Shown in pieces: positions 48,942 through 59,605 of a DNA stretch of 64,000 nt; the stretch's first letter is position 1, and each line of letters begins with the position of its first letter. Source of the DNA: Pseudanabaena sp. lw0831 (GTDB lineage Bacteria > Cyanobacteriota > Cyanobacteriia > Pseudanabaenales > Pseudanabaenaceae); contig NZ_BBJB01000006.1 of assembly GCF_016584665.1 (NCBI RefSeq), positions 1-64,000 on the forward strand. The letters are read 5' to 3'. Under the pieces are notes generated by a model. It did no database searches. It saw only the letters and a program-made list of their open reading frames with translations, and was not told the origin of the DNA. The position numbers and the translations under genes are program-made.

Positions 48942-48965
48942 CTCGCAATGCGAGAAATTCTTCAT
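48942..48965 (+). terminator. Small hairpin after the 48424 gene
   Basis: GAATCTCTCGC-AAT-GCGAGAAATTC, 8 nt after the stop, first of two tandem hairpins. Confidence 0.6.
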
Positions 48966-49022
48966 AAAACCAAAACGATGAGAGTCGGCGCTTCGCGCCG
49001 ACTCTCATCGTTTTGGTTTTAT
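48964..49022. terminator. 28-bp perfect palindrome with GCTTCGC core (longest arms seen)
   Basis: ATAAAACCAAAACGATGAGA.. (48964-48991) pairs without mismatch with 48995-49022 around TTC. It lies between convergent genes. Confidence 0.85.
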
Positions 49023-56206: not shown

Positions 56207-57214
56207 ATGCAGTTAAAAAGTGTCGTTCAGCCCTTTGGTGAAGTCAATGTTTATCCCCAAAACAATGGAGATATTGACATCGTTGCAACTATTCTGATGG
56301 TTCCAGACATTGAAGGCGCAAGAGTTGGCTTAGCCTTAGACGGTTCTGCCTCGATGAAAAAAATGTATGGCATCAGTGGTGTCGTCAGTAGCTTTTTTGC
56401 CAGTGCCGCTGTTACTCACAATGTCGTCGAGCCAGTAACAAGGGTGATGGTCAAGTATCTCGCCAATTTTGCAGCTACTGGTAAAGTTGACTTGATCAAT
56501 TGGGCTTGTGGCGCAGCAGGTGAACTGATCGAAGACTTGGGCAGCTTTAGCGGTGAAGAGATCGAGCAAATTGCGATCAAAGGTCCCAAAATTCCTTGGG
56601 GAACAGGGACGAAACTATTACCGACTTTACGATATTTCATTAATAAATATAAAGACGCACCTGCGATCGGGGTCAAGCAACCTGCGGCAATTTGTCTAAT
56701 CATCACCGATGGCATTATCGAAGATCTCGAAGATGTGAAGGAATATTGCTTTAAATATGCTCTAGAGATTGCCGATCAAACCAAACCATTTATCAAACTT
56801 TTGCTAATCGGCGTTGGCAAAGAGATTGATGAAAAACAACTAGAAGAACTAGACAATATGTTTGAAGGCAGCTTTGTAAAAGATGCCGCAGGTCGTGAGA
56901 TTGACCTATGGGATTATCAAGTTGCTGATGATATCCAGATTCTCGAACAGATTTTTAAAGAATTTGTGTCAGCGGAAACGATTGTGACGCATTATGGACG
57001 CATTCTCAATCAGTCGGGAACGGTTTGTGAAGAGTATAACTTCGGTGTCCCTGCCCTGATGCGTTTCAAGTTGCCTGCGGGTTCAACGGCTTTTACCCTA
57101 GAGTTTTCTGGCGGCAATGTTACTCAAGACATTACGGAAGCTTTGCCTCCAGAGTTAGAGGCTCCTCTGATTACGGAGTCTGAACAATGGAAAGACGTTA
57201 TAGACTTCGTGTAA
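56207..57214 (+). CDS. Stand-alone vWA-domain protein (TerY-like)
   Basis: 335 residues. MIDAS motif D45-x-S47-x-S49 in GLALDGSASMKK, and later T/D positions in AICLIITDGIIEDLEDVKEY. The N-terminal lead (VVQPFGEVNVYPQ) is shared with the next gene's product. No signal peptide or membrane helix; cytoplasmic. TerY-like vWA proteins act in metal or stress-linked complexes, but a partner is not visible except the adjacent paralogue. C-terminal about 80 residues (SAETIVTHYGRILNQSGTVCEEYNFGVPA...) form a small beta domain also present in the paralogue. Confidence 0.8.
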   Translation: MQLKSVVQPFGEVNVYPQNNGDIDIVATILMVPDIEGARVGLALDGSASMKKMYGISGVVSSFFASAAVTHNVVEPVTRVMVKYLANFAATGKVDLINWACGAAGELIEDLGSFSGEEIEQIAIKGPKIPWGTGTKLLPTLRYFINKYKDAPAIGVKQPAAICLIITDGIIEDLEDVKEYCFKYALEIADQTKPFIKLLLIGVGKEIDEKQLEELDNMFEGSFVKDAAGREIDLWDYQVADDIQILEQIFKEFVSAETIVTHYGRILNQSGTVCEEYNFGVPALMRFKLPAGSTAFTLEFSGGNVTQDITEALPPELEAPLITESEQWKDVIDFV

Positions 57215-57223
57215 ATAATTAAG

Positions 57224-57280
57224 AACTAAATAATAATTATCAAATCTTGCAAAGCAAGATTTGATAATTATTATTTGGTT
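57224..57280. repeat. 27-bp palindrome with GCAAAGC core between the two vWA genes
   Basis: AACTAAATAATAATTATC..CTTGC pairs with its complement (one G-T) around AAA. It separates the two vWA genes, so the second may have its own promoter. Confidence 0.8.
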
Positions 57281-57322
57281 TTAGATAAATTAGCAATTAA
57301 AAAACAAGAGAAATAGAATGCC

Positions 57323-59605
57323 ATGCTACATGAGAATAATTCCGAACCTATTGAATTAGAACGTGCAGACAATGGTGAAATTAAAAATAAAATTAAAAAT
57401 GAAGGCAAGAACGAAGTAAGACTTGAATCAAAAAGCTTCCAAATGCCAGCCAATCTAGTGGCAGCAGAGTTTGGCGAGGTGAATGTTTGGCGGAATATGT
57501 CAGGGATAAATTCGGGAATAGCTGAATGTCGAGTGGAATTCTCGATCTCAATGGAGCCACAGGGAAAATTTGCCGAGGGTTGGCGGACTGGGCTTGCCCT
57601 AGATGCTAGCGCCTCAATGAAACGATCCTATGGGCGCAAGGTTGAGGCAAGGGTCGATCCTGAACTGTTGGTTGATTATATTAAGCAAGGTCGATTGCGT
57701 TCTTATTTAGAGGACGGAGAACCGATTCGGAAGATTGAACGTGGTGCCTTTGCAGAAATCCAAGAGCGAGGCTATGAGATTAACTATACTGCAAACGTCT
57801 TGCAGCCATTAGTTCAAGATTTTACAGCTTATCTGGCTGGCAGTTTAGATGGCACTGGGAAGACTTCGTTAATTTATTGGGGTTGTGGTAGTGGCGATGA
57901 GATTCAAGTATTGGGTGAATTTGATCATGCTAGTTGTCAGCAGTTAGAGATCGCTGGTCCCGCCACTTTCCAACTTGGTAAGACAACCAAGCTATTACCA
58001 GCGATCGCCTATTTCGTAGACCAATATAGCCAAGCACCACAGGGGATTTATATATTCTTGACCGATGGCAGGATTGATGACTTAGATCAGGTCAAGAGCT
58101 ATACCAAGGAGCTAGCATTAGAGATTGCGGTCGGGAAACGAAACTATTTGAAATTGGTTTTGATTGGGATTGGTAATGATGTCGATCGCTATCAGTTGCA
58201 GGAGCTAGATGATTTTGAGACTGGCTTAGATATTGATATTTGGGATTACAAAATAGCTAATGAAATGACTAGTCTCTCGCAAATTTTTGCAGAAGTGGTC
58301 AATGAACATCAAGTTATTGCTGATAGCGGCTCCATTTACGACGATCAAGGAAATTGCGTCAAATCCTATACCAATGGGTTACCCGCCAAAGTTGATTTTT
58401 TAATGCGCGATGATTCTCAATGGTTTGAGCTAGAAGTGGGTAATCAACGCATTCGTCAAGCTGTGATTTTAGGTACTGCTATGGCGATCGCCCCTTTAGC
58501 AAAGAAAAAACTATTCGATTTTGAGACTCAGCCGCAGGAAAGCGATCAGGCTGTTGCCCTAGTAGATGATCAGCTAGATCGGGAAATCGATAGCAATCAG
58601 ATGAACCAGCCAAGCAGCCTCTGGAAAATATTAGCGGCTTTGTTGATTGGTGCGGCTTTTATCGGGACGGCGATCGCCTTTGGCATTTTAATCCAGCGAT
58701 CGGATAATAATAAATTACAAAATCAGGCAGTGCCTGAAGCGATCAAAGAATCCGTACTTGAGTCGAAGACAGATTCTACGAATAAAGCCAATAAGAACTT
58801 ACCAGATAGTTCAACTAAATCGAATCCCCAGAATTCGCAAAAACCAACAAATCCAGTAGCCAATCCATCACCCAACAAGGAAACTAATCATAAGTTGAAT
58901 GATATTGCTGACAAGCAATCTGGAAATAAATCCAACATAGTTGCGATCGCTAATCCTCAAAAACTAACTGGAGATATGGCGCTCGCTACTCTAGTAAAGT
59001 ATGGTATTGTTCCCAAGTCAAAAGTGGGTGCGCAATCCTCTGCTGTCTCTCAGACTAACGATCAGGGCTATAGTTCTATCAACACCTCGGCAAAAACGAA
59101 TAAGGATAATCCTCCTAAAAATGCTGGTGCTGGTGATTTAAATAATTCCAACAATGTTGCGAAATCCGATCGCAAAATTGCGCTTACAAACGATCCAAAT
59201 TCTTCAAACCAGAATAAAACTAGCGATCGCAGCATTAATAAATCAATTTTGCCAATTACGAATCCAGACGTAGAAATAGTAGTTTTTTTCCCATCTGATG
59301 AATCGCAACTTATATCTGGTGAAGAAACCAAAATTGAGGATTTCTGGACAAAAATTCAAGGAAGACGAGGAATCATTCAAGTCATTGGTCATACCGACAG
59401 GATGGGAGACTATGACTATAATCTTGACCTCTCACAAGCAAGAGCAAATGAGGTGGTGAGATTACTGCGCGATCGCGGCTTGGATGGTAATTATAAAGTC
59501 ACGTTTGAAGCTTTATCGTGGTTGCAACCTCTGCGTAAAGAAATTACGGCAAAGGATAATGCGTTTAATCGTCGTGTGGTTATTCAATTCAAAGAGCAGC
59601 GTTAA
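57323..59605 (+). CDS. vWA domain fused to a membrane helix and an OmpA-type peptidoglycan-binding domain
   Basis: 760 residues. Residues 43-390 form a vWA domain paralogous to the upstream protein (FGEVNVWRNMSG, MIDAS D94-x-S96-x-S98 in GLALDASASMKR, and IYIFLTDGRIDDLDQVKSY). It has an about 60-residue insertion after the MIDAS. A membrane helix (about 435-455: ILAALLIGAAFIGTAIAFGILI) is followed by a Ser/Asn/Lys-rich linker (about 460-640, disordered) and an OmpA-family C-terminal domain (about 648-760: VVFFPSDESQLIS; VIGHTDRMGDYDYNLDLSQARANEVVRLLRDRG). Inferred topology: cytoplasmic vWA, periplasmic peptidoglycan contact. With its paralogue it looks like a two-gene module. Confidence 0.85.
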   Translation: MLHENNSEPIELERADNGEIKNKIKNEGKNEVRLESKSFQMPANLVAAEFGEVNVWRNMSGINSGIAECRVEFSISMEPQGKFAEGWRTGLALDASASMKRSYGRKVEARVDPELLVDYIKQGRLRSYLEDGEPIRKIERGAFAEIQERGYEINYTANVLQPLVQDFTAYLAGSLDGTGKTSLIYWGCGSGDEIQVLGEFDHASCQQLEIAGPATFQLGKTTKLLPAIAYFVDQYSQAPQGIYIFLTDGRIDDLDQVKSYTKELALEIAVGKRNYLKLVLIGIGNDVDRYQLQELDDFETGLDIDIWDYKIANEMTSLSQIFAEVVNEHQVIADSGSIYDDQGNCVKSYTNGLPAKVDFLMRDDSQWFELEVGNQRIRQAVILGTAMAIAPLAKKKLFDFETQPQESDQAVALVDDQLDREIDSNQMNQPSSLWKILAALLIGAAFIGTAIAFGILIQRSDNNKLQNQAVPEAIKESVLESKTDSTNKANKNLPDSSTKSNPQNSQKPTNPVANPSPNKETNHKLNDIADKQSGNKSNIVAIANPQKLTGDMALATLVKYGIVPKSKVGAQSSAVSQTNDQGYSSINTSAKTNKDNPPKNAGAGDLNNSNNVAKSDRKIALTNDPNSSNQNKTSDRSINKSILPITNPDVEIVVFFPSDESQLISGEETKIEDFWTKIQGRRGIIQVIGHTDRMGDYDYNLDLSQARANEVVRLLRDRGLDGNYKVTFEALSWLQPLRKEITAKDNAFNRRVVIQFKEQR

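Follow-up and report, generated by a model that had tools for sequence, protein, structure and literature searches.

Gene layout and vWA modules of the locus

The stretch of Pseudanabaena sp. lw0831 DNA that was analysed (64,000 nt, hereafter the window) carries two adjacent + strand genes, A and B, which are separated by 108 bases. The recomputed open reading frames match the two ORFs at 56207-59605 reported by the first-pass annotation. The features of the locus are listed below, with the supporting evidence in brackets.

56207..57214, + strand: gene A, vWA protein, predicted soluble, 335 aa (ORF call, homologues; AlphaFold2)
56339..56353, + strand: first MIDAS motif of A, DGSAS, residues 45-49 (invariance across 32 sequences)
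56609-56611 and 56708-56710, + strand: remainder of the A MIDAS, T135 and D168, respectively (conserved residues)
57228..57276, no strand assigned: hairpin in the A-B gap with a perfect 23-bp stem (many others in the 64,000-nt window)
57323..59605, + strand: gene B, vWA, membrane helix, linker and OmpA domain, 760 aa (ORF call; AlphaFold2)
57455..58477, + strand: predicted cytoplasmic module of B, vWA with flanking beta-strands, residues 45-385 (AlphaFold2; dN/dS 0.070)
57602..57616, + strand: first MIDAS motif of B, DASAS, residues 94-98 (invariance across 31 sequences)
57986-57988 and 58064-58066, + strand: remainder of the B MIDAS, T222 and D248, respectively (conserved residues)
58622..58714, + strand: membrane helix of B, residues 434-464, core ALLIGAAFIGTAIAFGILI, mean hydropathy 2.45 (AlphaFold2, sequence)
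58715..59248, + strand: linker of B, residues 465-642, N/S/K-rich, disordered (AlphaFold2; dN/dS)
59249..59602, + strand: OmpA-like peptidoglycan-binding domain of B, residues 643-760, Pfam match 655-750 (Pfam, Foldseek, dN/dS 0.080)

The hairpin between the two genes is possibly a terminator or an attenuator. Its interpretation as a pair-specific regulatory element was rejected, because 36 perfect-stem hairpins of 13-28 bp occur within positions 1867-63643 of the window (e.g., 57228-57276 and 48964-49022). Among them, 35 are intergenic and many are located near ORF ends; a mononucleotide shuffle (n = 1) gave 0. The A-B gap of some relatives also holds perfect stems (18-30 bp) of quite unlike sequence, and that of other relatives holds none.

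According to sequence comparison, A and B are homologous, with 40% identity across 227 residues (E 1e-40). The common FGEVNV sequence noticed earlier is located at residues 10-15 of A and 50-55 of B, and the MIDAS proposed for both proteins proved complete, consisting of DGSAS (45-49), T135, and D168 in A and of DASAS (94-98), T222, and D248 in B. Residues D45, S47, S49, T135, and D168 of A are invariant in 32 A/B/H-type sequences; in the 31 sequences compared for B, D94, S96, S98, and D248 are invariant and T222 is nearly so. In the AlphaFold2 model of A (mean pLDDT 81.7), the vWA domain lies between strands contributed by residues 10-29 and 259-308, and the model of B shows the same vWA core followed by the helix, a disordered stretch, and a terminal OmpA fold. 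Both proteins possess the DxSxS motif, the separate T and D residues, and the fold of a vWA domain with a MIDAS. The similar C-terminal subdomain described by the first-pass annotation is indeed shared, being made of beta-strands in both models, and the strands from both chain ends that flank the vWA domain probably form one beta-sandwich. The nearest folds to A in Foldseek include copine BON1 and RGLG vWA proteins.

Membrane helix, linker, and OmpA domain of B

The helix of B, previously placed at residues 430-460, is real and slightly longer in the model (434-464). A signal sequence was considered and rejected, because the helix comes after about 430 folded residues and is missing from the soluble B homologues. 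The charge bias flanking the helix is weak, so the topology is deduced chiefly from the OmpA domain and from the lack of a signal sequence; by this reasoning the vWA module would be inside the cell and the OmpA domain on the wall side of the inner membrane. The long disordered linker also described earlier spans about residues 464-642 with pLDDT below 50 in the AlphaFold2 model. Among the fused B sequences, linker identity is 0.32 and its dN/dS is 0.53, and its length, measured in 20 of them with a slightly different boundary, ranges from 91 to 262 residues.

The OmpA domain matches PF00691 with 46.1 bits against a cut-off of 27.2, as the first-pass annotation would have it, and its fold matches peptidoglycan-binding domains, among them the peptidoglycan-peptide-bound structure 3td5 (Foldseek, TM 0.78 by target). 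A chance match was rejected by the Pfam score together with the Foldseek fold matches. D692 and R707 of B occupy the diaminopimelate-binding positions and are retained by the fused relatives in the alignment displayed; their spacing of 15 equals that of the ligand-binding D271 and R286 in Acinetobacter OmpA. B has the Pfam match, the fold, and the diaminopimelate-binding D and R of an OmpA domain, and this domain is predicted to bind peptidoglycan. The NCBIfam MotB/TssL models and the PADLOC ZorB models also match this part of B.

Conservation within Pseudanabaena and origin of the fusion

B was found in 26/26 Pseudanabaena genomes and A in 24/26, and the pair described by the first-pass annotation is conserved in the genus (24/26 genomes). 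Genome G007, which is 99% complete, contains B but no A, showing that B is able to persist by itself; in G006, B is located near a contig end, so that the presence of A cannot be judged there. The OmpA fusion is present in 23/26 genomes, while B of G007, G011, and G018 ends soon after the helix, and tblastn of the C-terminal part of B found no OmpA remnant in the loci covering these three genomes. In the tree, these short forms occupy two separate positions inside the genus (L064 with L040, and L065), which points to at least two apparent losses of OmpA with retention of the helix, although some forks are weak. The median dN/dS is 0.036 for A (residues 1-316) and 0.070, 0.183, 0.527, and 0.080 for the vWA module, helix, linker, and OmpA domain of B, respectively, values that are rough as dS is near saturation (about 1.5) in most segments. 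These ratios indicate strong purifying selection on the vWA and OmpA domains and very little on the linker.

The pattern bears on a transmembrane relay, in which cytoplasmic MIDAS binding would alter the engagement of OmpA with the wall, or the state of the wall would be reported inward, in a MotB- or YfiB-like manner. Such a relay would suit a protein whose topology resembles that of TM-OmpA proteins (MotB, long TssL), whose OmpA part is matched by the ZorB and MotB/TssL models, and whose OmpA domain is strongly constrained. However, the linker of variable length is disordered and evolves almost freely, which argues against conformational coupling, and three genus genomes retain the helix without OmpA. 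Moreover, reading of the ORF lists revealed no MotA/ZorA/TolQ-like gene immediately next to the pair, the exception being a MotA/ExbB-looking ORF start in L038, which is some kilobases from the pair and is not at that position in other loci. We therefore regard a relay as unlikely. The first-pass annotation had proposed that B either transmits a cytoplasmic binding event to the envelope or anchors an assembly; anchoring fits better and is favoured over mechanical transmission, because OmpA was apparently lost twice with the helix kept and the linker is long and floppy. Anchoring in a structural sense, with B mainly tethering the inner membrane to the wall and A regulating its clustering, e.g., at poles or division sites, is what the helix and the conserved D692/R707 of the OmpA domain might suggest. 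That three genomes dispense with OmpA, whereas none lacks the MIDAS-bearing vWA module, makes such a role very improbable in our judgement.

B sequences form a single group distinct from A (100/100 support), and both an A and a B are encoded in one Gemmataceae genome, implying that the A/B duplication is older than the genus. This phylogeny makes A and B old sister families, and their pairing extends to other cyanobacteria and to one planctomycete. Beyond Pseudanabaena and its close relatives, however, the family is seldom encountered: a phylum sample gave 6/386 genomes with it, genus members included, and non-cyanobacterial relatives are under-sampled. Adjacent A and B genes, the latter encoding a soluble protein as judged from its sequence, occur in Symploca, Arthrospira, Desmonostoc, Nostoc, and the Gemmataceae genome, while B of UBA999 and SM2_2_1 has a hydrophobic helix at its end and a short tail, the helix of UBA999 being weak (hydropathy 1.33). 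A plasmid or phage origin was rejected: A had no match in plasmids or phages, and the B alignment had none in viral contigs.

Downstream of the pair in Arthrospira, Pfam recognises a TerY-type vWA protein, a PP2C_2 phosphatase, and a protein kinase, and in Symploca, Nostoc, and G522 the pair is followed by ORFs in a similar order, of which those for the vWA protein and the kinase have matching starts. The TerY-P-like triad was not seen at the Desmonostoc locus, and the ORF downstream of the Gemmataceae pair had no Pfam match. A CAP-domain protein (PF00188, Pfam-tested in L068 only) is encoded downstream of B at L068:12535-13059, and L069, L071, and L129 have resembling ORF starts downstream of B; where a TerY-type vWA gene follows, the CAP-domain ORF precedes it. 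Two loci, L041 (G042) and L042 (G001), contain two and three further tandem vWA relatives beside DnaK/Hsp70-like ORF starts, and the tree, which includes three of these relatives, unites them in a single group (100/100). A second A-type gene without an adjoining B is present in L072 (Nostoc KVJ20 contig_132), and three tandem A/B-type vWA genes lie in L074, a Myxococcota contig.

TerY-P has been reported as a stand-alone anti-phage system (PMC11090510; PMC7699616), and A and B might accordingly belong to a phosphorylation-dependent anti-phage or stress system, acting with kinases and phosphatases whose genes lie at other genomic sites. The triads adjoining relatives in Arthrospira, Symploca, Nostoc, and G522 are in line with this, as is the patchy occurrence beyond Pseudanabaena and its near relatives (3/218 genomes, family of G555), which would be expected for accessory defence genes. 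We nevertheless find this explanation doubtful. The triad PP2C gave no hit at E 1e-10 across the 26 genus genomes, and the kinase gave only short generic matches in the Pseudanabaena sp. lw0831 genome. In addition, the near-universal presence in Pseudanabaena and the strong constraint are core-like rather than accessory, and PADLOC gives no defence family for A and only OmpA-domain matches for B.

A trace of how B acquired its OmpA domain was found in Nostoc KVJ20, where the end of B is followed, after 10 bases, by an ORF of 202 residues that encodes a single helix and an OmpA domain. Its OmpA domain is the closest unfused relative of B OmpA found: it scores about 65 bits against B OmpA, the best other cyanobacterial OmpA among 194 genomes reaching 38, and it groups with B OmpA (94/97) at only 32% identity. 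Because this separate helix-OmpA ORF directly follows B, the fused B seems to have arisen by the joining of two adjacent genes, with a single Nostoc locus as the base of this reading. As a tentative scenario, which we regard as less likely than not, a rare accessory vWA/TerY-P cassette may have been domesticated at the base of Pseudanabaena, losing its kinase and phosphatase, joining the membrane-OmpA gene of the cassette to that of one vWA subunit, and becoming a core, wall-pinned intracellular scaffold.

Proposed role and comparison with known systems

The explanation we prefer, with middling confidence, is that B is a fixed docking platform attached to membrane and wall and facing the cytoplasm, to which A binds via MIDAS faces, the assembly being held at the envelope. 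In this scheme, A and B would descend from intracellular vWA families encoded beside a TerY-P-like phosphorylation triad. B would span the inner membrane, since the helix occurs in all the genus and OmpA in most species, the vWA module lying in the cytoplasm and the OmpA domain being attached to peptidoglycan. A would be the soluble partner docking on B by MIDAS faces, further acidic or phosphorylated partners perhaps also binding B in this way, and the assembly would thereby be retained at the envelope. The A-B binding, the metal binding, and the platform role are all predicted from sequence. Taken as a whole, the locus looks like a genus-wide, wall-anchored offshoot of a TerY-P-type cassette.

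A cell-wall anchor thus appears to keep a MIDAS vWA module at the cytoplasmic face of the inner membrane, and the origin of B can be traced from a soluble B, through a separate membrane-OmpA gene in one relative, to the genus fusion and the apparent OmpA loss in some species. The pair also offers a simple system to ask what TerF-like and TerY-P-associated vWA proteins bind and where in the cell. Full-text literature searches returned nothing relevant on a vWA-OmpA architecture or on a bacterial TerF/copine link.

Compared with known vWA families, A scores 15.5 bits against the 29.4-bit cut-off of the vWA-TerF-like model PF10138 and B has no match, while 9/32 members of the A set match it at E<=0.01 (best 2e-4) and 3/31 of the B set also have matches (best 5e-5). 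The Copine model (PF07002) is matched by 1/32 A-set members, and copine BON1 is among the top Foldseek folds of A. Unlike PF10138 and PF07002 proteins, B has an additional membrane helix and OmpA domain; A has no further Pfam domain. TerF consists of a TerD domain fused to vWA, and a TerD domain had no match in A or B, so neither is a TerF. On these similarities, A and B belong to a TerF-like/copine-like vWA group and not to TerY. The TerY link raised by the first-pass annotation holds only indirectly, as A and B themselves are not TerY vWA proteins but their relatives adjoin a TerY-type vWA, PP2C_2, and kinase; the locus itself differs from TerY-P in that no triad was recognised there in the ORF list of the window, and the triad PP2C is undetected in the genus.

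The best profile match of A by sequence is Sulfolobus vWA2, a paralogue of ArnB, which is not significant (E 0.16). ArnB acts in a phosphorylation-dependent complex in Sulfolobus acidocaldarius, and vWA2 of this archaeon consists of a vWA domain and a beta-sandwich to which N-terminal strands contribute (PMC6509490). The likeness to A and B would lie in this combination and in two paralogous vWA genes near each other. In contrast, the model of A has no C-terminal four-helix bundle, and a wall anchor is not known to be described for ArnB or vWA2 (PMC6509490). By analogy, and with a non-significant sequence match, ArnB is the nearest functional precedent found for A and B. On the envelope side, B resembles MotB, ZorB, and long TssL, in which one helix is followed by a periplasmic OmpA domain, but, unlike them, is predicted to carry a large MIDAS vWA module in the cytoplasm.
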